From assembly GCA_013995675.1 (NCBI GenBank), contig VWRR01000015.1, forward strand, positions 372,001 to 436,000: a stretch of DNA of 64,000 nucleotides, given 5' to 3'. A program made the position numbers and the translations under genes. The notes beneath the pieces were generated by a model. It saw nothing but the letters and a program-made list of their open reading frames with translations, made no database searches and had not been told where the DNA came from. Below, piece after piece: positions 9,103 to 54,168 of the stretch. How positions within the stretch are numbered: the stretch's first letter is position 1; every line of letters starts with the position of its first letter. Source of the DNA: Cyanidiococcus yangmingshanensis. Lineage: Eukaryota; Rhodophyta; Bangiophyceae; Cyanidiales; Cyanidiaceae.

Positions 9103-9253
9103 GTTCAAATCGTTGCTGTTGTTGTGATGGTTGCAGCCAGGAGGGTATTGCGCCTTGCCGCGCATTCAAGGCGCCGCCAACATCGTGGCTTGCGCGGTTC
9201 CGGGGAAGCGTCTCTCGCAGGCCTGCCGTCTAGAACGGCCGCTTGTCTGCAGC

Positions 9254-9995
9254 ATGGAGGCTTCATTCGAGGATTCTTGGCAGGGCCGTGTTGATTTAGT
9301 GCCTCAGACACCACAGCTTGTCGCCTTGTACACTGTGATCCGGGACTCTCGTACGAGCCGGGGTGAGTTTGTTTTTTACGCCGACCGCGTGATTCGTTTG
9401 TTGCTTGAGCACGCCCTGAATCATATACCGCTGACGCCTCGAACGGTGCTGACTCGACTAGGCGCCAAGTTCGTTGGGCTCGCGTACCACGAGAAAATAT
9501 GTGGTGTGTCGATCGTGAGAGCGGGTGAGGCGTTTGAACAAGGTTTGCGGCAGATCGCTCGCTCGGTACGAATCGGGAAAATTCTCATTCAGAAGCGTGA
9601 GTCAGGCGAGGCGCGACTCATTTCCGTACGCTTTGCCTCAGGACGTTGCACTTCGGTGGGTGCTGCTCATGGATCCAATGCTTGCGACGGGAGACACTGC
9701 CAAAATGGCGGTGCATATATTGACTCAGGTTGGGGTTCCTGCAGAGCGAATTCTCTTTGTGTGCATGTTTGCTTGTCCCGAGGGCATCCAGGCGCTGTTG
9801 AGCGCTTTTCCTGGAATACAGCTCATTACAGGTGCTGTGGATAGCGGTCTCACAGCCGATAAGTTTATAACTCCGGGGCTGGGCGACTTTGGGGATCTGT
9901 ATTTCGGGACCTGCGAGGATGACCGGGACTCGAGTTTGAGTTTTACTGACTCGGATGCAGGGACATTAGACGGGACCTCTCCGCACACATCCTAA
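9254..9995 (+). CDS. Uracil phosphoribosyltransferase
   Basis: Converts uracil plus PRPP to UMP in pyrimidine salvage. From ATG 9254 the frame gives 'YADRVIRLLLEHALNHIP', 'CGVSIVRAGEAFEQGLR' and 'IGKILIQKRESGEAR', all typical of eukaryotic UPRT. The remainder sits in the +1 frame: YALPQDVALRWVLLMDPMLATG (PRPP-binding loop), the conserved 'VPAERI' region and 'ITGAVDSGLTADKFITPGLGD'. The alignment to yeast Fur1 across the break is gap-free, so one extra base lies near 9615-9625. The PRPP loop reads DPMLATGDT instead of the usual DPMLATGGS. A 16-nt GT..AG stretch at 9626-9641 cannot be an intron because it encodes the conserved LPQD. Confidence 0.9.
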
Positions 9996-13203: not shown

Positions 13204-15356
13204 ATGCCCGGCTCTCAAGCGTTTCTGTTCCATGCGAACGTGTTCGTGAAACGTCGGGAACGGAACTTGTGTACTGTGGTGGTGCGTCGAGGACAGACGA
13301 ACGCTCGACGTTTCGTGTGGGCCAGCGCGGTGAAACCCGAGCAGAACGCAAGGTCGAGCGCACCCGTCCAGACGAGCGTTGACACCGGGTCGCTAGACGA
13401 GCAGAAACGTCAACAGTGGCCAAAGTCTCCAGATGGGGCTATCGTGCTCTTTATGGCGGCGTTGATTGGAGTCAGTGGCGGTCTAGGGGTCACGGCGTTC
13501 AAGACCGCTATTCGGGTGGTCTCCGACGTTGGCTACGGCGACATTGTGGCGGGCGCACTGCTCCCTTTTTTCGGATCCTTGAACTTGATTGCAGTGCCAT
13601 TCATAGGCGGTGCATGTGTGAGTCTGCTGAGAATCCAATTCGGTCCATTTGATGGCGGCATTGAAGCGATGCGAAAGTCCATGGAGAAATCCCAGCGACT
13701 AGATGGTGTTCGTTCGCTGGTCAAGGCGACAGCGGCTGTATTCACACTCGGGAGCGGATGTTCACTTGGACCAGAGGGGCCTGCAGTTGAAATTGGGGCT
13801 TCTTTCGCTCGTCTTGTTCCGCAGTGGATCTCAGATAGCATGCACCTGCGCTTGTCAACGGAGCGATTACGACAGCTCTTCGCTTGTGGGTGTGCAGCTG
13901 GCGTTGCGGCTGGTTTCAATGCACCTTTCGCTGGCGTGTTTTTTGCGTACGAAATAGCGCAGCGGGCTGGTGGAGGTCACGTTGAATTTGGCATAGGTGG
14001 TAGCACAGGCTCCCGCGCTGCTTATTGCCTCAGCGATGAGTTCGTTGATCGCTCGGCTCGGACTCGGCGAGCGTCCAGCGTTCTCGATTCCGACTTATGA
14101 TTTGCGCAACCCGCTGCTTGAGTTGCCGCTCTATCTAGGGCTGGGCATTCTGGCTGGTTGGACGAGTTTGGGGATTTCGAAAAGCGCTGTTGATTGGCCA
14201 GCAGCTTTATGACCACCCCTGGTTGCGTCGGGTGCCACGCTCGTGGAGGCCGCTTTTTGGTGGTTTACTCAATGGCATTGTTGGGTTTGCCTTCCCACAG
14301 ATTCTCTTTTTTGGTTACGACATGTTGGATGCTCTCCTGGCGGACACAAATTTCAGCATTCCGCTTCTAGCTGGATTGCTGGTTCTCAAGCCAGTCATGA
14401 CGGCGGCGAGCCTCGGAAGCGGACTTGTCGGAGGTACTTTTGCGCCAGCGTTATTCGTTGGCGCCAATTTGGGGGCACTCTACTGCAAATCAATCGAATG
14501 GATCAGTGACTGGTTCGTCTCAGCGGTGTTCAAAACGCTGGGCGCGATCCCAGCCAGTGCACTCTCTGGCTCGATCCCTATCGCTGGACCTCCAGCGTAC
14601 GCCATGGTGGGCATGGCTGCGGTCCTTGCGGGCATGTTTCGCGCGCCCCTAACCGCTTGTCTCTTGCTCTTCGAGATGACACGCGATTATCGTATCATTT
14701 TGCCGCTGATGGCGGGCGTTGGTATCAGTGCATGGATCGCGGATGACTCTGGTCCAATGGCTAGGGCAACCGCGCCTCAGTATGCGGAGAAACGGGAGGG
14801 GCCCTCTCCCCTCTATTTGGGTATTCGTCCAGACGCGGAGTTTCGTTCTGTAGCAACGCGATTAATGGTCCGTGATGCTATCTCATCACTCAAGCCGCTC
14901 TTTTTAGATGCCCAGCAGAGTGCGGGAGAGGCGCTCGAATGCTTGCGCGAACGAGACCGTGCTTGTATCCTGGTGACAAGAACCGAGACGACCCCGAGAA
15001 TCATGGGCCTCGTGACCATTCAGGATCTGTTACGGGCAAAGAATGAATATGGCTCCCTGCAAACTGTCGTCCTGCGTGATGTCTGTTCCAGTGACTTTCA
15101 GCTCATCTCCGAAGACGAACCCCTCGTTCGTGCTCTCGACATCCTCGAATCGCAGTCGATGCCACTGTTACCCGTGACTTTTTCTGACACGTCTGAGGAA
15201 CGCTCTTACACGGAGACTCCGAATGGGGCGCCCTTTGCCAGTTCAGTAGCAGGGGCGCCAATTCAGATTTGTGGTTTTGTCGACTTGTCGAGCATCGAGC
15301 GGGCGGTGCAGCTCTCGCGTTTGCTGACCGAGCCCAGCCAAACAGAGGCCTCATAA
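13204..15356 (+). CDS. ClC chloride channel/transporter with CBS pair
   Basis: ATG 13204. A basic leader of about 75 residues may be a plastid transit peptide. The ClC core contains 'GSGCSLGPEGPAVEIG' (the gating Glu in GPEGP is present), 'CAAGVAAGFNAPFAG', and 'GGTFAPALFVGANLG' (the anion-selectivity GGxFxP motif). Two CBS domains close the protein: 'MVRDAISSLKPLF...' to about nt 15040 and 'LRDVCSSDF...' to about nt 15320. The core resembles cyanobacterial and plastid ClC-e-type proteins. The gene needs two +1 breaks: near 13996 and near 14183 (AAAA run). The middle piece 'GERPAFSIPTYDLRNPLLEL' fits the family exactly. It probably adjusts anion balance across a plastid or vacuolar membrane. 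Confidence 0.87.
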
Positions 15357-27954: not shown

Positions 27955-29003
27955 AACGAGCCACGATTTTCCTTACGGACTACAGTGGCTTGAAGAATCG
28001 TTCTAAATCGAAGCGCTTGCGCTAATTCGGCCCTTGTGGCAGCGGGTGGTACACGGCCTATCTTCCAGGGCGATATCGCCTCGTTGTCATTCCTGTTTCT
28101 GTGACATCGTATACGCTGTGCGTAGCATTCTTGGATGCCAAGGACACACCAGCTCCGATGCAGTGCTCATTCAGGGCTCCGCTGCATCTCATGCTATGTC
28201 AACAACATGCTTGAACGTTTTGGCGCTCTTGGTGTAAGAGTCTCGAGCGCGCCGGTTTACCTGGCATCCAGGTTGATCCCTCGCTATGAACCTGTCTGGT
28301 CCAGGTGATTGTCGCAATTCACCCAAGCGATTCAATCAACGATAATTCACTGAGGAGATCTGCTGAAACCGATGCTCGTTACAAAGAATCAACAAATTCG
28401 GCAAAACAATCATCGATATATTGTCTGGAGGGGTGGATATCGCAGGGCCTCACCCAGCAATCCCAAGGGACTAGAGATCGCCGCTCATCTATGCTCCCCT
28501 TTCATCACATACATCGAGCAAAAGTAAGAAAAAGCAGGATTGATGTGCACCTTGTCACACGATGTTGTCTCCGAATCCCAATCCGATATTCAACTTGGAT
28601 GGACCTGCATGCATATCTCCTATACGTTCATGAATGCGGCCAGACGTTATGGCCACTGACTTGTCCGGGTCGATCTATGCGTCCATATCTCCTATATGTT
28701 CATGCATGCGTATTTGCCTCAAAGTAGTTGGGCTGGTCCGGGTCGATCTATGCGTCCATATCTCCGATAGGTTCATGCATGCGTATTTGCCTCAAAGTAG
28801 TTGGGCATGTCCCGGTCGATCTATGCGTCCATATCTCCTATAGGTTCATGCATGCGTATTTGCCTCAAAGTAGTTGGGCTGGTCCGGGTCGATTTCGGAC
28901 ACGGCGCGCCTCGGGGCAACGATGCGCCGTCCCAGCGTCATCGGGCTCGAGCGCAGTCTACAAAAAAAATGGTTGCTGGCATTGCGCTGCTCGAATATAG
29001 ACC
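27955..29003. other. Divergent promoter region, ALDH/CCT5
   Basis: About 1 kb with no recognisable gene. It holds the 73-bp minisatellite next to the CCT5 start. Confidence 0.5.
28667..28900. repeat. 73-bp minisatellite upstream of CCT5
   Basis: Three full copies begin at 28667, 28740 and 28813 (SGGTCGATCTATGCGTCC), and a fourth starts at 28886 and fades. Each contains CCTATAKGTTCATGCATGCG and CTCAAAGTAGTTGGGC. Copies differ by only a few bases, so expansion is recent. A diverged unit precedes them from about 28594. A period of 73 rules out a coding repeat. The array ends about 100 bp before the CCT5 ATG at 29004. Confidence 0.92.
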
Positions 29004-41445: not shown

Positions 41446-42969
41446 TCACTGCAAGGCGCCGCTGGCGTTCGCTCGGGCGTGCAGTTTGGTGGGGGCACCT
41501 TGCCGTTGACGTTGTGCTTCTTTCCGTCGACGGCTCGCCACTTCTTCTCGTTTCTGCTGGGCGGCTGAGTGGAGGCGTCGAGGCAGGAAGCGACTTTGGA
41601 GAACACGTCGCACCTGGGGAAGGTAGCGGTGCCGTTCTCGCAGTTTTCGTGCGTACTGCAGGCTGCGTTTCTCGCGCACCAACAACTGTCGCAGGGGGTC
41701 TGCGGCAGACGACTTCCAAACACGCAGATCGCCATCGTCACTGGCGCTGAGAATAAAGCGGGCGTCACCAGTATACTGCACCCGAAAAACATGCTGCATT
41801 CGTTTGGTATGATAAATATCCCGCGATGCGCCCTCCCTTCGATCGAAAATACGCACTGTGCCATCGTAGCTGCCGGTGCACAGTTCATGCCCGGTTGGTG
41901 CATAGGATACGCAAAGCACAGGACCAACGTGGCCACGATAGACCTGCCGAACGCGATCCAGACGACGGATATCGAAGAGATACGCATCGTGATCGTCGCA
42001 CGCAACCGCTAGCTGGAAGGGTTCCATAGGGTTCCAGGCTGCGTCATTGCACCGCATCGGCAGTCGATGACGTGCCAGCGCGCTTTGCTGCCGCGTGTCG
42101 TACAGTGCTATGTCACGGCTCGTCAGGCATGCTGCAAGCAACATTGCCTCCGAAGGATGATAACGAAGGCAGTTCACTGATGCTGACATCTGTTCATGGC
42201 TCCATACCCGTAGCAATGGCTCAGACCGGTGATAGTCCCAGATCTCCAGCCAGCCGTCCTCAGCGCCGGTTGCAAAAACCGTGGCCTGCTGCGGAGAAGC
42301 GGTCACGTCGCCGAAGCCTCCGGATAGACGCCGATAGGAGCCCACCGGTGTCCAGGTGCCCGTCAGCGGACCCACTGGCCAGCGCCAAAGCTGCACAACG
42401 GAGCTGACCGAGTCCCCCTGACTCGCCGAAAGCAAAAAGCGCCCGTCACATGTAGCCGCTAGGCCGCAAACCAACTGGGTATGGCCAGAGCGACTCCGAA
42501 CAAGGCTCTCCCCCGAGCCAGCGGTGCGCTGCGAGAGCCGCCAGACGCGCACCTCGCCATCGCCGCTCGCCGTCGCAACGTCAGCTAAGCGACGCGGGTG
42601 CGTCACCAGGCTGTAGATCCCGTCGGCGTGCCCCTCATGTGCCGAAACAAGCGGCCTAGCCAAAACGCGCTCAATCTTCGCAGCATTCAGCGCCCGCTTA
42701 TACTCCCTCGCCCGTTCAAAGGGGTGAATCACCGGATCCAAGTTGCGAACCGTACTCGCTACCGCAGTTTCCTTCAGCTCACGCTCTGAGCGCGTCAAAC
42801 AGTGCACCCGCATACCTGCAGGTCCGTGTTCCGCCACAGACAAACACTGTTTGCTGCGCTCCCCGGTGCACGGATCAAATCGGTCCATGCGTGGCACCGA
42901 CGTCGGACGGACACGTGTGCGTGCTGTTGACGGCTGCAGGTGCCGGGGCCCCGCGTCGCTCGATCCCAT
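41446..42969 (-). CDS. DCAF13: DCAF13/Sof1, WD40 small-subunit processome factor
   Basis: 507 residues, intact. After a short leader come 'VRNLDPVIHPFERAREYKRA' and 'LNAAKIERVLARPLVSAHEG', the Sof1/DCAF13 N-terminal signature, then about seven WD40 blades (e.g. GHADGIYSLVTHP, 'GRFLLSASQGDSVSSVVQLW', 'GHELCTGSYDGTVRIFD', 'ARFILSASDDGDLRVWK'). The C-terminal Sof1 domain (RQLLVREKRSLQYARKLRER, 'LPQVRRVLQSRFLPRRLHSA') is basic. The protein works in the U3 snoRNP/SSU processome in 18S rRNA maturation. The ATG MDRFDP, residue 28, is also a plausible start. Confidence 0.94.
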   Translation of the reverse strand: MGSSDAGPRHLQPSTARTRVRPTSVPRMDRFDPCTGERSKQCLSVAEHGPAGMRVHCLTRSERELKETAVASTVRNLDPVIHPFERAREYKRALNAAKIERVLARPLVSAHEGHADGIYSLVTHPRRLADVATASGDGEVRVWRLSQRTAGSGESLVRSRSGHTQLVCGLAATCDGRFLLSASQGDSVSSVVQLWRWPVGPLTGTWTPVGSYRRLSGGFGDVTASPQQATVFATGAEDGWLEIWDYHRSEPLLRVWSHEQMSASVNCLRYHPSEAMLLAACLTSRDIALYDTRQQSALARHRLPMRCNDAAWNPMEPFQLAVACDDHDAYLFDIRRLDRVRQVYRGHVGPVLCVSYAPTGHELCTGSYDGTVRIFDRREGASRDIYHTKRMQHVFRVQYTGDARFILSASDDGDLRVWKSSAADPLRQLLVREKRSLQYARKLRERHRYLPQVRRVLQSRFLPRRLHSAAQQKREEVASRRRKEAQRQRQGAPTKLHARANASGALQ

Positions 42970-43384: not shown

Positions 43385-43986
43385 ATGAAGAAAGCACTGG
43401 CATTGATCTTCCTTGGTATGATGGCGACCGCTGGTGTGGCTCGGGCAACCGAAGTCACGGAAGGCGAGGAGGTTGCTTTTGAGGAGAATCCGATTGAGGA
43501 AACCGAGCGTGGTGGCTACTACTACGATGGACAGAACAATAACAACTTTTACGTCAACAATAAGCCTTCATACAAGCCGAAGTACAAGAAGAACTATTAC
43601 CCGGAGAAGAAGCCTTACACGAAGCAACCGATTTACACGAAGCAGCCCATCTATACCAAACAACCGATTTACACGAAGCAGCCTTACACCAAGCAACCCA
43701 TCTACACCAAACAACCATCTACACCAAACAACCCAAATACCAGAAATCGTACCAACCAGAGTACAAGAAGAAGAAAGAGTACTATCCTCAGGAACAAAAG
43801 CAGTACCAGACTCAATACCCCAAGCAGGAACAGAAGAAGAATTACGGTGCGAAGAAGGAGTACTATGCGCTGAACAAGCAGTACAAGGGCCAGCAGCAGC
43901 AGAAGAAGTACCCTGAGAAGAAAAAGCCATACATCAACAAGAAAAAGTACTATGGTGAGCAGAACAATAATCAGTACTACTACTGA
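43385..43986 (+). CDS. Secreted Tyr/Lys/Pro-rich repeat protein
   Basis: ATG 43385 begins MKKALALIFLGMMATAGVARA, a clear signal peptide (cleavage expected after ARA), then an acidic TEVTEGEEVAFEEN linker. The body is dominated by Tyr, Lys, Pro, Gln and Asn: 'YYYDGQNNNNFYVNNKPSYK', then hexapeptide repeats YTKQPI (about six). After a one-base deletion near 43713 (CC where the preceding repeat has CCC), the continuation is YQKSYQPEYKKKKEYYPQE and onward to GEQNNNQYYY at stop 43984. Total about 200 residues. Lys/Tyr/Pro repeats of this sort are typical of adhesive and cross-linkable extracellular proteins (mussel foot protein style) and of Tyr-rich cell-wall proteins. Secretion is well supported; adhesive function is inference. 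Confidence 0.72.
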
Positions 43987-44267
43987 AGGGAGTTTACGAG
44001 GACTGTACATCGCGTAGCCGAAGCAGTTGTCTGCTTCCGACGAGAATCTAAAAGGATCCGCATTTCGTAGATAATTTGAATCTTGTCCAGGGAGATAGGT
44101 TGATCACAACGACCATGAATGCACACCAGCAGCAGTCTCCCCTTCGACTAAACCGAGTTCGTAAGACCGTCTCTGGACGTACACGAGTCCAAATCAAACA
44201 AACATCCTTCGCAGATCATTCAGGGTCAAGCGCTGAGTATCAACCATGCGCGCTCGTATCTGTCACC
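43987..44267. other. 3' flank with duplicated SHPRH end
   Basis: Between convergent genes. It contains the extra copy of the SHPRH 3' end; see the repeat entry. Confidence 0.6.
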
Positions 44268-44345
44268 TCACGATATACACGAGTCCAAATCAAACATCCT
44301 TCGCAGATCATTCAGGGTCAGGCGCTGAGTATCAACCATGTCTGC
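44180..44345. repeat. 96-bp tandem duplication of SHPRH gene 3' end
   Basis: TACACGAGTCCAAATCAAAC starts at 44180 and again at 44276, each followed by CATCCTTCGCAGATCATTCA and GGTCARGCGCTGAGTATCAA. The first copy has an extra AAAC. The right copy encodes the last residues of the minus-strand SHPRH gene (VDTQRLTLNDLRRMF); the left copy lies beyond its stop and is a spare end. Confidence 0.9.
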
Positions 44346-47300
44346 TCGCGTCTGCGATCGAGACTGCTCCGATGAGCGGAGATGTTGCTCGTGCCACTGA
44401 TTACGCGCCCCAATCGCCTGTACATGTTCCTCGACTGTGCCCTGAACCACGTAACGATGCACAAAGGTGGAGCAGGTCTGGCCGATGCGATGAACGCGGC
44501 CAATAGCCTGCAGCTCGGCAGCTGGATCCAGCAGCGGCTCCAACAAGAGCACATGGCGCGCCTCGGTCAGGTTCAGACCGTTCGCGCCCGTCCGTATCGG
44601 TAACAACAGGACACAGAAAGGATCTGTCCGTTGGCGAAACGCTTCAATATCACCGATGATGTGTGGAATGCTGTTCCGCTCAAGTGCTGTGCTCAGAATC
44701 TGCAGGAGCTCCGACCACTGCGAAAACACAACGCATCGATGATTCATGCTTGGATGGCTTCCGAATTCAGCGGCTTGTCTGGTTGCAAACTCCTGCAGTA
44801 GCAGCAGGTCACGCACGACTGCCTCAATTTTGGCACCGTAGCTGCCCTTGATCGGTTCGCTCGCCATGCACGAACTCGACGCCGTTGTCTGAATGAAGGA
44901 GAGCTCTCGTGCGTTGCAGACTTCTCGACAGACGGGACAGGGAAGCAGACGGCTATGCTGACGATAAACCCGAGACTCCAGATAACTCGAAATGCATTCA
45001 ATACAGAAACAGTGTCCACAGGGCAACAACACCAGCTCGGCACCAAGGGTACGGTAACAGATCGGACAGGATTCGCGGCTCTTGGCTGCCAGGTCTTCAA
45101 TGCAGGCGCTCTTCAGATGCTGTAAGTAGATGAGCTGGCCCTTCTTGCGACGCAACTGTTCTTCGGCGAGACGACGGTCCATCTCTAGGGACAGGGCTGT
45201 AGGTTCAATTTCAGCTTCCAGAATCCGATATCGACGCTCCGACTCGCTAACCTTCTCTGCCGGCTTTCGTATCGTGATACGCATTGCGGCCATGACGAGC
45301 TCGTCCAGAGCGCCTAAATAGTCTTTCTGGGCGCGAAAATAAGCATGTGCTTGGGTAAACTCTCTCTTCAGGAGGGCAAACCGCTCCCACTCCGCCACAG
45401 CAGCGTCAATCAACATCGGGGCATGACCCTCGACTCGTCTCAAGGCGGTTCCAATGAAACGCAGGGTGCGTTCGAGTTCGCTGGCGAGACGAACACCACC
45501 GTCACCCTCGGTAATTACGGCTGCCAGTCGGCGGATGCGCTCTCCACTGTTTGGCTCGCGCGTTTGAGTCGCGTTCACGGGTCGCGTACGAACCGCAAAT
45601 AGACGTCTCTCATACGTCTCGAACAATTCCTCCGAGCGACAATGCTCACAGGGCTCACCATGCATATCCTGCCGGCACTGGCCGCAATTACCCGAGTTTC
45701 GAACCTGGATGTCAGTCGGTTCTGAAGCGCCATTGCCGGGGAGCGTCACGAGTCGATCCAGGAGCGCTCGTCGAGCCTGCTCCAGCGAATCATAACCTTG
45801 CACCAGAACGTAGGTGAGTGTCTTGATGGAGGACACTGGTGTCGTCGCGCCCAGCTGTTGCAGAATCCCGTCCTCGTCGAGTCGGTCCAGAAGCCACCGC
45901 TCTTGACCGGTTGCAGCGATCGCCTCGAGAGCAGCCACCCACCAGAGACGTCCAGCTCGCGACTGCGCTCGACGCTCGAGTTCCTCGCCCAGTTGGAGCA
46001 GTTGGGAGCGAGCAGTCTCGACCAGCTCGCGACTCCCCCGAAGATAGGCCCTTCGGAGATCGGCTGCATCGTCGACTAATTGAGCCTCTCGAAGGGTCAT
46101 GCCCAGACCAGAGCGCTCCAGATGACGCGTCTGAAGCACTTCTGCCAAGTTCACCATGACGTGATAGCGCTGCAGAGGATCGATTTCAATGAAATCCGCT
46201 TGTTTCGGATCTTGAGCGCGTTGCAGAACCGAGCGGTAGAGATCGACTGCATCCACTGCCTGTCCTCGAAGCAACGCGATAGCGGCCAGACCATTCAGAG
46301 CGGCCACTAATGATCGTTGTGCCTCTTCACATTCGAGACGCGCTCGCTGCACAAGCACGTCCAGGACCTGGTCCATGGTCATGATGTTGGGCTCGAGTCC
46401 GCCGCCACCAGCACTGGCTGGTGCCAAACGAGGGTGACAACACGCCTGTCGGAGCACCTTCAGATGATGCAGTACCAGCCGAACGAGTCCGTAGCCCCGC
46501 CTTGATGCTGTTTTCACGAGCGACCCCGGCTGCTCGAGATGCTTGGCCACCCGCGAGTTTAGAAGGTGACCAACGAAACTTGCACAAGTCTCGTGCTGAC
46601 GCATATAGTAATGCCGTTCAACTGGGCCCAAGGAAAGCGTCTGCATGACCTCAAACTGAGGTAGGAGGCCGATCTCCCGCTGCACATCGACTTTCTCAGA
46701 ACGCCATGAGAGCGCTCGAATCACTTGGGCGAGACGCGCGCTGGCACCAACTCCGTTCCGCTCACAGGGACGAATCAGCCACTTTCGCCATCGGTCCGGC
46801 TCATCAAACGGCTCAAAGCGCAGAAAACGGACGAGACCTTCGAGGTCGTCCACTGAACGCCGCACTGGTGTTCCAGTAATACACCAGCGCTTGTGTGCCC
46901 GTAGTTTGAGGGCCATCGCAGCCGCTGCAGCGACGCCGCCGTGAATCATCTGGGCTTCATCGAGACAGATGCGCTCCCATTCAATACGACTCAGCGGTGT
47001 CGGTGCCACTTGGTAGCGTTTCGCGTACCGTAGGTTGCGTTCCTGAAGGATTTGGTCCTGCGCACGGTTCACATCCGCTCGCAGGGCATCATAGGTGGTC
47101 AGAACAATGTCGGCACTGGCCAGACGCTTGCAGCGTTGATAGGTCTCCCTGCGCAGACCCCGATACACCACCACATCTACTGATGCATCAAGGAGGTGCT
47201 TCCGAATTTCGAGTTCCCATTGGCCTAGAATCACGGTCGGGCAGACAATCAACGTCGCTCGGCTCGGCTGGTATGACTCGGTGCGCATTTTTTCTACGCA

Positions 47301-48656
47301 GTCGTCACAGAAATATCGTTTGCGAGCGCGTCCTACCAGCAGACAATGCACAAGCGGCTTTGCACTTGTTACGCCACATTCAAAACAGGTGCGTTTGGTT
47401 TGGCGAATCCGATTCAGATCGGTCGACTCGATGCCATTCAAGTGGAGCGACGCCTGTTCGGCCTTCTCCTGGCGTTGGAGCAACATACAGGCCAGCAATT
47501 CGACGGTTTTCCCCAGGCCCATTTCATCACAGAGCATGCCACCGTAGACAAGCGGCAGCGAGGAGCAGTTCGGCTCTGACGACGATGCGGTCGTTGCTAC
47601 CGACTCGAACGGTTCATAGAGAAGCGGTGAGAAGCTGTCGCCACGCCAGTCTGGAATGCTCAGCGGCTGCAGGTGTTCGAACGCAATGCCAAGACGTTCT
47701 CGCTGCAGCATCCAAGACACTGCTCGGCATTGGTACGGTCTCAGGTGGGGTCTCAGTCCAGGCACCTCGGGGCGGACCTCGAACTCGACTGCTGGTTCCG
47801 GCCCCGGGGCCAATGCCGAGGTCTCCCTTTCGAGCTCGCTTCCCTGGTGTGTACTCGAGTCAGCCGGCAGACGACGCATGATTTCGTAGACCCAAGATGC
47901 TTCACCCCAGGCAGCACGCTGGTCGGTATGCTGAGGCCCAGGCGATACTTCCACAAGACCACGAGCCGAGCGAAAGCGCCACAACGACCGCCATGTGGAT
48001 GAGTTTGGTGTTTCGCGTTCACGGAGCGATGCCTCTGTGAGCGCTGCCTCGGGATGCCAGAAGGTGATCAACCGCTGAAGATCTCTTCGAGTACTTTCCT
48101 GCCTCAGGGACGTCGATAGACAACATTCGCGATGCAGAAGCACCAACCATCCCGAAACGGGGACTTGTATGAACACCAAGGTTGCAATGCGCTTTTGAGT
48201 GAGACGCCACAGAGCCTCCACCAGAGGTGCCTTCAACTGGACCGTGAGGACTCCATCTTCCCGTGCCAGTGAGTCTGGAGCCTTGCGCTTGCGTGCGGCT
48301 AGCCTTGGTTTGGCTTCGCGGGAGCTCGTCGATGACGCGACCCAGCGTAGTGACCAGCGAGCGAGCGGTTTCTGATCGCCACCTAAAGCTGCTTGACAAC
48401 GCAGTTGCAACTCCGACTGGTCCACCGACTCGAAGTTAGGGTCCTCGATCAGATTCAGGATACCAAGCCCGAACCAGTCTGGGTCGTTGGCCGACACAGG
48501 CACCACGTCAAGCCAAGCCCCTGGCAGCGGCTTGGCGTTCCTCACCGCGTGCAAAGTGCCCGACGGTGTCTCCCGCTCAACTTTTACAGCTATATCAGCG
48601 ACGTCTCCATCATTTTCACCAAGTCGTCGTTGTGGTTGCAGTTGTTTGCGACGCAT
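44268..48656 (-). CDS. SHPRH-type SNF2 helicase and RING E3 ligase
   Basis: 1,462 residues, an intact 4.4-kb frame. Motif I is CDEMGLGKT at about 377. A PHD-like zinc finger (CFEC...CDDC) lies at 424-453 inside the helicase, as in human SHPRH. Motif II reads DEAQ (CLDEAQMIHGG near 565), also as in SHPRH. The RING finger is at 1197-1243 (CPIC...LPCGHCFCIECISSYL...CPVC). The second helicase lobe (VFSQWSELLQ at 1310 to IGRVHRIGQTC) follows it. SHPRH family members ubiquitinate PCNA and promote damage tolerance and rDNA-related functions. The 96-bp duplication at the 3' end leaves this frame unchanged. The exact orthology (SHPRH rather than Rad5/HLTF) rests on PHD, DEAQ and domain order. Confidence 0.93.
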   Translation of the reverse strand: MRRKQLQPQRRLGENDGDVADIAVKVERETPSGTLHAVRNAKPLPGAWLDVVPVSANDPDWFGLGILNLIEDPNFESVDQSELQLRCQAALGGDQKPLARWSLRWVASSTSSREAKPRLAARKRKAPDSLAREDGVLTVQLKAPLVEALWRLTQKRIATLVFIQVPVSGWLVLLHRECCLSTSLRQESTRRDLQRLITFWHPEAALTEASLRERETPNSSTWRSLWRFRSARGLVEVSPGPQHTDQRAAWGEASWVYEIMRRLPADSSTHQGSELERETSALAPGPEPAVEFEVRPEVPGLRPHLRPYQCRAVSWMLQRERLGIAFEHLQPLSIPDWRGDSFSPLLYEPFESVATTASSSEPNCSSLPLVYGGMLCDEMGLGKTVELLACMLLQRQEKAEQASLHLNGIESTDLNRIRQTKRTCFECGVTSAKPLVHCLLVGRARKRYFCDDCVEKMRTESYQPSRATLIVCPTVILGQWELEIRKHLLDASVDVVVYRGLRRETYQRCKRLASADIVLTTYDALRADVNRAQDQILQERNLRYAKRYQVAPTPLSRIEWERICLDEAQMIHGGVAAAAAMALKLRAHKRWCITGTPVRRSVDDLEGLVRFLRFEPFDEPDRWRKWLIRPCERNGVGASARLAQVIRALSWRSEKVDVQREIGLLPQFEVMQTLSLGPVERHYYMRQHETCASFVGHLLNSRVAKHLEQPGSLVKTASRRGYGLVRLVLHHLKVLRQACCHPRLAPASAGGGGLEPNIMTMDQVLDVLVQRARLECEEAQRSLVAALNGLAAIALLRGQAVDAVDLYRSVLQRAQDPKQADFIEIDPLQRYHVMVNLAEVLQTRHLERSGLGMTLREAQLVDDAADLRRAYLRGSRELVETARSQLLQLGEELERRAQSRAGRLWWVAALEAIAATGQERWLLDRLDEDGILQQLGATTPVSSIKTLTYVLVQGYDSLEQARRALLDRLVTLPGNGASEPTDIQVRNSGNCGQCRQDMHGEPCEHCRSEELFETYERRLFAVRTRPVNATQTREPNSGERIRRLAAVITEGDGGVRLASELERTLRFIGTALRRVEGHAPMLIDAAVAEWERFALLKREFTQAHAYFRAQKDYLGALDELVMAAMRITIRKPAEKVSESERRYRILEAEIEPTALSLEMDRRLAEEQLRRKKGQLIYLQHLKSACIEDLAAKSRESCPICYRTLGAELVLLPCGHCFCIECISSYLESRVYRQHSRLLPCPVCREVCNARELSFIQTTASSSCMASEPIKGSYGAKIEAVVRDLLLLQEFATRQAAEFGSHPSMNHRCVVFSQWSELLQILSTALERNSIPHIIGDIEAFRQRTDPFCVLLLPIRTGANGLNLTEARHVLLLEPLLDPAAELQAIGRVHRIGQTCSTFVHRYVVQGTVEEHVQAIGARNQWHEQHLRSSEQSRSQTRADMVDTQRLTLNDLRRMFDLDSCIS

Positions 48657-52710: not shown

Positions 52711-53874
52711 TCAAAAGAGCTTGACGGGCCCGTCAATGACCGGTTGCTGCTGGGTGAGACAATGGATATTTCCGCCACCAAGTAGAATTTCGCGACCAAC
52801 TGGCACCTGCACGACGTGAACATTCGGCAATACGAGCTGTAAGGCTTTTCGCGCTGCCTCATCATGTTCTGGAATGCCGAACCCGGGCATAACGATGCCG
52901 CCATTGGCCCGGTAGAAATTCACATAGCTCGCGGCTAGGCGTTCTCCAACTTTGCGCTGTTCGTAGCCGGAAGCGCCATTGTCGCGCTGCTCGGGTCCCG
53001 CTCGAGGCAGCTCGTCCTCTCCACGATGGAGTTCGGGTGGTGCCGGCACCAACACGATCTGTAGCGGTCGACCGCAGGCATCCACACTTTGCGATAGCAC
53101 CTGGTGCGCTGCTTGGCACCGTCGGTCAGTGGGATCCCAGTGCAATGCGACCATGGCTGGCGCTAAGAACACAGCCATGTTGTCTACATGGCCACTGGTG
53201 TCCACATCACCCTCGATGCCATACGGCAACCAGATGACCCTGGTAATACCCAGATATTCCCGCAAATGGTACTCGATATCCTCTTGCGAAAATGTTGGGT
53301 TTCGGTTCGGATTCAAAAGGCATTCTGCAGTAGTGAGGGCAGTCCCTTCCCCATCAACACTGATGCTGCCACCTTCGAGAACCATGGGGCACCAGAAACG
53401 AGGCAGTCGCTCCATGAGCAGCATCTTCTTCCCAACCTGTTGATCGAGGCTGCAGTCCACATAACAGCTGCCTGCCGGGCCACCCCAAGCATTGAAGGCG
53501 AAATGGACCCCTGCTCCGAGGCTGACACCCTCCGCAGTGTCGCTGCGTACGAAAATCGCCCCCGTATCCCGCAACCAACAATCATTGCTGCTTATCTCGA
53601 CTACCCGAACGGAATATTGCGCAGATCGACCTGGACTGTCCGAAGAATCAACCAGCAGTGCGCACGCCCGGGAAAAGGCTCGACCCGAACACACCACCGT
53701 TACAGGCTCGAACTCCGCGATGGCCGCTACAACTTGAGTTACTGCAAGCTGGGCCGGTTCTGCTCCCAGACGCCAGTTATCGAGACGTTCTGGCCAACCG
53801 ATCCAGCAGTTCGCGTGCGGAACCCACTCTGCAGGCTGTCGCAGCCCGAGTGCGAACGGCGTTTGGTCGCTCAT
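52711..53874 (-). CDS. Agmatine deiminase (AguA)
   Basis: About 387 residues from ATG 53874 (MSDQTPFALG). Hydrolyses agmatine to N-carbamoylputrescine in the arginine-decarboxylase route to putrescine. Signature segments: PAEWVPHANCWIGWPER, 'NDCWLRDTGAIFVRSD', 'HFAFNAWGG', 'MVLEGGSISVDGEGTALTT' , 'GDVDTSGHVDNMAVFLAP' (active-site acidic/His region) and 'REILLGGGNIHCLTQQQPV' with the catalytic Cys. These match the plant and bacterial guanidine-modifying family. Intact. An in-frame extension to 53907 lacks an ATG. A long plus-strand frame across it is an antisense shadow. Confidence 0.95.
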   Translation of the reverse strand: MSDQTPFALGLRQPAEWVPHANCWIGWPERLDNWRLGAEPAQLAVTQVVAAIAEFEPVTVVCSGRAFSRACALLVDSSDSPGRSAQYSVRVVEISSNDCWLRDTGAIFVRSDTAEGVSLGAGVHFAFNAWGGPAGSCYVDCSLDQQVGKKMLLMERLPRFWCPMVLEGGSISVDGEGTALTTAECLLNPNRNPTFSQEDIEYHLREYLGITRVIWLPYGIEGDVDTSGHVDNMAVFLAPAMVALHWDPTDRRCQAAHQVLSQSVDACGRPLQIVLVPAPPELHRGEDELPRAGPEQRDNGASGYEQRKVGERLAASYVNFYRANGGIVMPGFGIPEHDEAARKALQLVLPNVHVVQVPVGREILLGGGNIHCLTQQQPVIDGPVKLF

Positions 53875-54168
53875 CGTGCGACGTATCGACTCTGGGCAGT
53901 GACCCAACCGCCAACCTCGCTAGTCCTGAGCGAACAAGAGACCAAGAAGTTTCAAACTCTACGCCCCAGGCCGATACTGCGTTCAGCACTGAACGAGCGA
54001 CCTCGGACAGACGCGCCGACTCCAAAACCACTTGACTTTACGATCAGCAAAAGCGCATTCGAAACCGCAAACGAATCACCAGATCGTTCGCTGGGACCAA
54101 CCACAACGTGCCTCTGTTCCGATCAACAACTAGAGAGTTTCTTCCAACCGGAATTGGACAGCGCATGA

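Follow-up and report, generated by a model that had tools for sequence, protein, structure and literature searches.

A candidate orphan secreted Lys/Tyr-rich repeat protein, encoded across a frame break in the red alga Cyanidiococcus yangmingshanensis

The secreted Tyr/Lys/Pro repeat proteins closest to the one considered here come from mussels and plants. The repeat of mussel foot protein 1 (Mefp-1) is described as AKPSYPPTYK (PMC6282983), and those of the plant proline-rich wall proteins and extensins as PPVYK and PPVEK (PMC4020777). For the Cyanidiales, one account reports walls that are 50–55% protein, citing Bailey and Staehelin 1968, and the absence of CesA/Csl (cellulose synthase) genes (PMC13353863). 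Its secreted wall candidates are FAS1, LOX, TFF-like and Hog proteins, together with RBOH and glycosyltransferases; the bulk structural polymer is not among the candidates that this text gives, and the FAS1, LOX and RBOH genes are described as being expressed mainly in walled diploid cells (PMC13353863). According to a proposal by Tomo et al., a secreted lysyl oxidase-like protein cross-links proteins of the wall, none of which is named in the sections consulted; the loss of the histidine core from the algal lysyl oxidase-like protein is noted there and, independently of that text, by Grau-Bove et al.

The window analysed here is a stretch of 64,000 nucleotides (GC approximately 55%) from C. 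yangmingshanensis contig VWRR01000015.1 (GenBank assembly GCA_013995675.1, positions 372,001–436,000 of the forward strand). A preliminary description made from the letters of this stretch placed one secreted Tyr/Lys/Pro repeat protein at positions 43385–43986 and likened it to marine adhesive proteins. This interval comprises 602 bases, which is not divisible by three, and therefore no single open frame spans it. The frame-0 ORF listed in Table 1 encodes, in order, a predicted signal peptide, an acidic segment, a Tyr/Lys/Asn-rich stretch, six YTKQP units and an out-of-frame tail rich in Arg, Ser and Thr. The corresponding DNA repeat has a period of 18 and extends from approximately 43615 to 43733, with one unit a base short at the frame change. 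In what follows, the joined reading is the two-frame protein of 200 aa that follows frame 0 as far as residue 111 and then continues in the second frame from IYTKQP. It holds seven YTKQP copies, in keeping with the YTKQPI-type repeats first described; the last of these copies is outside frame 0, as is the C-terminal half. The locus does encode a real and probably functional protein, predicted to be secreted and, as set out below, an orphan, but the preliminary description had joined its two frames silently and missed the break.

Table 1. Features of the locus and its neighbours (positions are those of the window).
Feature	Position	Strand	Remarks
Frame-0 ORF	43385–43873	+	162 aa; stop 43871–43873
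Predicted signal peptide, residues 1–21	43385–43447	+	Heuristic; P0003 similarity
Acidic segment, residues 22–42	43448–43510	+	Charge approximately -8.6 at pH 7; mostly gapped in P0003
Tandem YTKQP(I) array	43616–43732	+	Units of 18, 18, 18, 15, 18 and 17 nt, then a partial unit
17-nt repeat unit at the frame change	43703–43719	+	One base less than its 18-nt neighbour
Second-frame C-terminal part, 89 aa	43717–43986	+	Ends in YYY, then stop 43984–43986
Best conserved module, approximately residues 149–191 of the joined reading	43828–43956	+	Alignment with P0003
Upstream divergent neighbour: WD40 protein with Sof1-like domain	41446–42969	-	Pfam
Downstream convergent neighbour: SNF2 helicase with RING finger, SHPRH-like	44268–48656	-	Pfam

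The 3' end of the SHPRH-like gene carries a 67-bp direct duplication (44196–44262 and 44288–44354; 90% identical, spacing 92). Elsewhere in the window, a 73-bp tandem repeat of 3.2 copies (28663–28893, 94% match) lies just upstream of a TCP-1 chaperonin gene, and positions 52711–53907 of the minus strand give a whole-profile match to the Porphyromonas-type peptidyl-arginine deiminase family, here in a red alga.

The mature chain of the joined reading (residues 22–200, 179 residues) is as rich in the five residues named in the preliminary description as had been claimed, with 20.1% Lys, 18.4% Tyr, 13.4% Gln, 9.5% Pro and 7.8% Asn. It contains no Cys, His or Trp and a single Arg (0.6%), has a pI of 9.55 and lacks N-glycosylation motifs. 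The combined Tyr and Lys content is 35.5% in the joined reading and 19.1% in the frame-0 ORF. The latter value ranks first among 288 ORFs (mean 4.6%, s.d. 2.2%), a set that takes in ATG-to-stop ORFs of at least 120 aa, spurious ones included, from the window and 20 ten-kb genome pieces (264 kb), and the composition is therefore not a matter of chance. The signal peptide is a heuristic prediction drawn from the ATG at 43385, a KK n-region, a hydrophobic core and cleavage between ARA and TE; no hydrophobic 19-residue stretch follows it in the joined reading. Neither the Pfam families nor the PDB chains searched gave any match to the window protein. The chain may well be disordered, for which the single-sequence AlphaFold model of its relative P0003, described below, gives mild support: the model (mean pLDDT 57.9) is largely coil, and the weak helix that it shows at residues 139–164 is the counterpart of the best conserved module.

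A database of 5.8 billion proteins yielded one relative, P0003 (187 aa; E = 5.3e-5; 99% query coverage), encoded on a 33,681-base ENA contig that presumably derives from a related alga. Local BLASTP puts the identity at 39%, and the MAFFT alignment puts it at 50%. P0003 has an unbroken frame and aligns with the joined reading from the signal peptide to the C-terminus, across the window's frame break; since this intact protein matches end to end over both frames, a full-length design exists. Lys is the commonest residue in both mature chains, with P0003 consisting of 22.3% Lys, 18.1% Gln and 12.0% Tyr and lacking Cys and His. The two proteins have in common a similar signal peptide, which bears out the one first described, a K/Q/Y-rich chain, the TKQP motif and the C-terminal Lys/Tyr module. 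They differ in that P0003 lacks most of the acidic segment, has less Tyr (12.0 versus 18.4%), carries Glu in place of Tyr in its motifs and is without a YTKQP array. Its related motifs number five (ETKQP, ETKQA and, three times, ETKKP), of which just ETKQP and ETKQA line up with YTKQP units; the alignment of the repeat is loose. P0003 has no copy of YTKQP.

The similarity to P0003 was compared with that of shuffled sequences. Four comparisons gave scores that none of 1000 shuffles equalled, with z at 12.1 for the signal peptide, 12.9 for the mature chain, 5.9 for the frame-0 part and 13.4 for the second-frame part (score 203, shuffled mean 89.4); the last 55 residues gave z = 14.0. In contrast, the out-of-frame tail of the 162-aa ORF was equalled by 575 of 1000 shuffles and the third-frame translation by 582. 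Residues 112–140, equalled by 96 of 1000, do not rise significantly above the shuffles, and so the middle of the chain is conserved in composition only. By hand count, 13 of the 33 tyrosines and 19 of the 36 mature lysines of the joined reading fall in invariant pairwise columns, and P0003 retains seven of the eight tyrosines present in the C-terminal module. These counts indicate that Lys is kept at least as well as Tyr and that Tyr matters mainly near the C-terminus. Judged by their sequences, the window protein and P0003 appear to constitute a new orphan family, with a similarity that runs end to end and goes beyond composition.

Searches of the alga's own genome (12,072,675 bases, 20 contigs) with the frame-0 protein, the joined reading and P0003 returned this locus alone, in a procedure that scores the best candidates only and could let paralogues of low similarity escape. 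No relative was confirmed in viral_contigs (211 pattern stretches) or in genome_contigs (75), each searched with two short peptide patterns, and a profile search with the joined reading and P0003 as a pair found just P0003 again among 2485 candidates. As a control in the same database, the LOX of this alga retrieved eight proteins, among them two Cyanidium caldarium sequences and a JGI protein at 95% identity. No relative of the window protein came from C. caldarium, which is present in this protein database, although divergent repeats could be missed. Because the database holds such algae yet gave no relative from them, any claim of wide conservation is limited. Literature searches (tyrosine-rich proteins of Cyanidioschyzon merolae or Galdieria, YTKQP, Cyanidiophyceae wall protein) found no counterpart in the article text that they covered, most of it openly accessible.

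The frame break consists of one missing base, which is most likely a sequence error because the window contains two further conserved genes with broken frames. The UPRTase gene (9128–9995, plus strand) matches positions 1–106 and 108–206 of PF14681 in different frames, and the CLC chloride channel gene (13204–15356, plus strand) occupies three frames at approximately 13930–14220, as read from the translations. These are two of the 17 Pfam-matched genes, with split genes counted once, in a scan that covered 22 of the 29 window ORFs of at least 230 aa and the second UPRTase piece. The alternative is that the break is real and the gene dead or dying, its product being the 162-aa ORF or nothing at all. 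The break does stand in the assembly, and the published assembly of 8.1.23 F7 was corrected with Illumina reads; the strain is called haploid, and it could tolerate a genuine break if the gene is required by walled diploids alone. However, the second frame still resembles P0003 more than any of its shuffles do, and its GC3 is 0.719 (43717–43983) against 0.451 for the frame-0 reading of 43718–43870, the three neighbour genes having 0.595–0.628. Together with the broken UPRTase and CLC genes, which point to sequence errors, this leaves a dead gene very unlikely in our view. Two further accounts of the break were set aside. A programmed frameshift has one in-phase X_XXY_YYZ heptamer at its disposal (CCCAAAT at 43732) in the stretch where both frames are open, where approximately 0.4 would be expected by chance in 104 codons by a hand estimate. 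A -1 slip at this position, which is 3' of the YTKQP frame change, would yield all of the C-terminal half yet lose the last YTKQP copy, and P0003 needs no such slip; we judge it unlikely. An intron at the break is unneeded because the repeat units on either side are continuous.

The lysyl oxidase domain has one match in the genome (positions 1309–1965 of stretch L004, G000:C20, with 219 aa readable). Its product, the lysyl oxidase-like protein P0004, has two features described for the protein that strain RK-1 secretes, the glycopeptide PMLNYSIWDSAGNLVRSGK and the Ala25-Gln26 cleavage site, and this exact match to a published peptide agrees with the earlier view that the DNA comes from a unicellular red alga of acid hot springs. 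Strain RK-1 is stated to have been renamed to Cc. yangmingshanensis (PMC13353863). The copper-site stretch reads CTGQFIT in P0004–P0007, and CHGHYH or CHDHYH, with the histidines preserved, in the more distant JGI homologues P0008 and P0009. Tyrosinase (PF00264) and animal-type peroxidase (PF03098) each gave no genome match, with no control positive for either, so that the tyrosinase result is a weak negative; laccase-type Cu-oxidase_2 (PF07731) gave none with nine of 14 controls positive. Plant-type peroxidase (PF00141; five of 14 controls positive) gave two genome matches, which we take to be of the ascorbate-peroxidase-like and plastid types, and no clear secretory peroxidase was seen among the matches to PF00141 (two genes) or PF03098 (none). 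FAS1 had one match in the genome and PF08030 one weak match (E = 7.4e-4). PF13640 had a single match (two of 14 controls positive), in a protein that is not a clear wall prolyl hydroxylase because it has an Ofd1 C-terminal domain. The published account reports class III peroxidase as absent from the genus and two RBOH genes as present (PMC13353863).

In our view, the best explanation, to which we give about an even chance, is that the window gene specifies a secreted, orphan structural protein for the wall or matrix of a Cyanidiales red alga, disordered and strongly cationic. The wall or matrix role suggested in the preliminary description is plausible because the walls are reported to be so largely protein. 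Guided by the signal peptide, a disordered chain rich in Lys, Tyr, Gln and Pro would travel the secretory pathway and end up in the extracellular matrix or the protein-rich wall. Once it is outside the cell, at pH 1–3, its acidic residues would be protonated and its lysines charged (approximately +38), and the flexible polycation might pack against other wall polymers, with covalent locking possible by way of Lys and, less surely, Tyr. The fast-changing repeat would supply length and flexibility, and the conserved C-terminal Lys/Tyr module would be the likely binding or linking part. The protein is a concrete candidate for the bulk wall polymer, and one that could be offered as a substrate to the alga's secreted lysyl oxidase-like protein. 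Because the organisms are described as transformable and switchable between walled and wall-less phases (PMC13353863), the role is directly testable. A stronger version, which we regard as unlikely, is that this is the first identified structural protein of the Cyanidiales wall. In this version a disordered Lys/Tyr-rich chain would harden in hot acid after its export, with no part played by tyrosinase, laccase or class III peroxidase; the agent would be either an unusual lysyl oxidase-like enzyme that has no copper histidines or oxidants supplied by NADPH oxidases. If the proposed role is true, it would also show that a protein-based material can set under hot, acidic conditions.

Several other roles compete with that of a structural wall or matrix protein. 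One is that the protein serves specifically as the substrate of the lysyl oxidase-like enzyme, with oxidized lysines going on to covalent cross-links as in elastin and collagen. The genome has the domain, P0004 carries the peptide and site of the secreted RK-1 protein, the available text of Tomo et al. proposes just such cross-linking of wall proteins, and Lys leads both mature chains; the enzyme would be an attractive cross-linker. However, the copper-site histidines are missing from P0004 and the enzyme may be inactive, and we consider this role unlikely. To a similar degree we doubt that the protein is secreted with no part in the wall, as a haploid-cell coat, a soluble exopolymer or a precursor of short peptides. 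Secretion is, after all, the sole prediction, and approximately 35–50% of the secretory-protein genes are reported to differ in expression between phases (PMC13353863). A peptide precursor, however, would retain its repeat and dibasic cuts, and neither a retained repeat nor more than a single Arg in the mature chain is found here; a peptide pheromone precursor, suggested by the tandem repeat, was rejected on the same two counts.

It is also conceivable, if unlikely, that the protein forms a proton-excluding coat in which positive charges anchored in the wall keep H+ out by Donnan exclusion; the number of lysines would then matter and cross-linking would be secondary. The predicted charge at pH 2 is consistent with this, being +37.9 for the joined mature chain and +38.9 for P0003 despite their different Tyr contents, but the idea is derived from composition alone and growth at low pH is also seen in wall-less haploid cells. 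Highly improbable, in our estimation, is the mussel-like adhesive of the preliminary description, in which Tyr would be converted to DOPA to glue cells to rock or to one another. The Tyr and Lys contents, the tandem Tyr/Lys/Pro repeats and the tyrosines retained in the C-terminal module speak for it. On the other hand, the repeat Tyr, which would be expected to last, is Glu in all five motifs of P0003, which counts against DOPA in the repeat being the point; an AKPSYPPTYK-type repeat is excluded because the joined reading has no PP dipeptide. The missing Pfam and PDB matches, the lack of tyrosinase matches (for which the controls were also silent) and the lack of Cu-oxidase_2 matches also weigh against such an adhesive.

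Like Mefp-1, the window protein is secreted (here by prediction) and has Tyr/Lys/Pro repeats, and its side-chain chemistry may be similar. However, its repeat is YTKQP(I) without PP, tyrosinase was not detected (a weak negative), the repeat Tyr is not kept in P0003 and no homology was seen; the mussel analogy is chemical at best. With the plant proline-rich wall proteins and extensins it shares the character of a secreted Tyr/Lys/Pro repeat protein, insolubilization in the wall being a feature of the plant proteins; unlike the extensins, the joined reading has neither SPP nor PP, Pro makes up only 9.5% of the mature chain and no Pfam family is matched. Substrates of the elastin and collagen type are likewise secreted and Lys-bearing, and this alga secretes a lysyl oxidase-like protein, but the window protein has no Pfam match and the algal enzyme is without the copper histidines. 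Nothing in these comparisons places the window protein in the mussel, extensin or elastin families, and we infer that it works in the manner of structural proteins of the wall or matrix.
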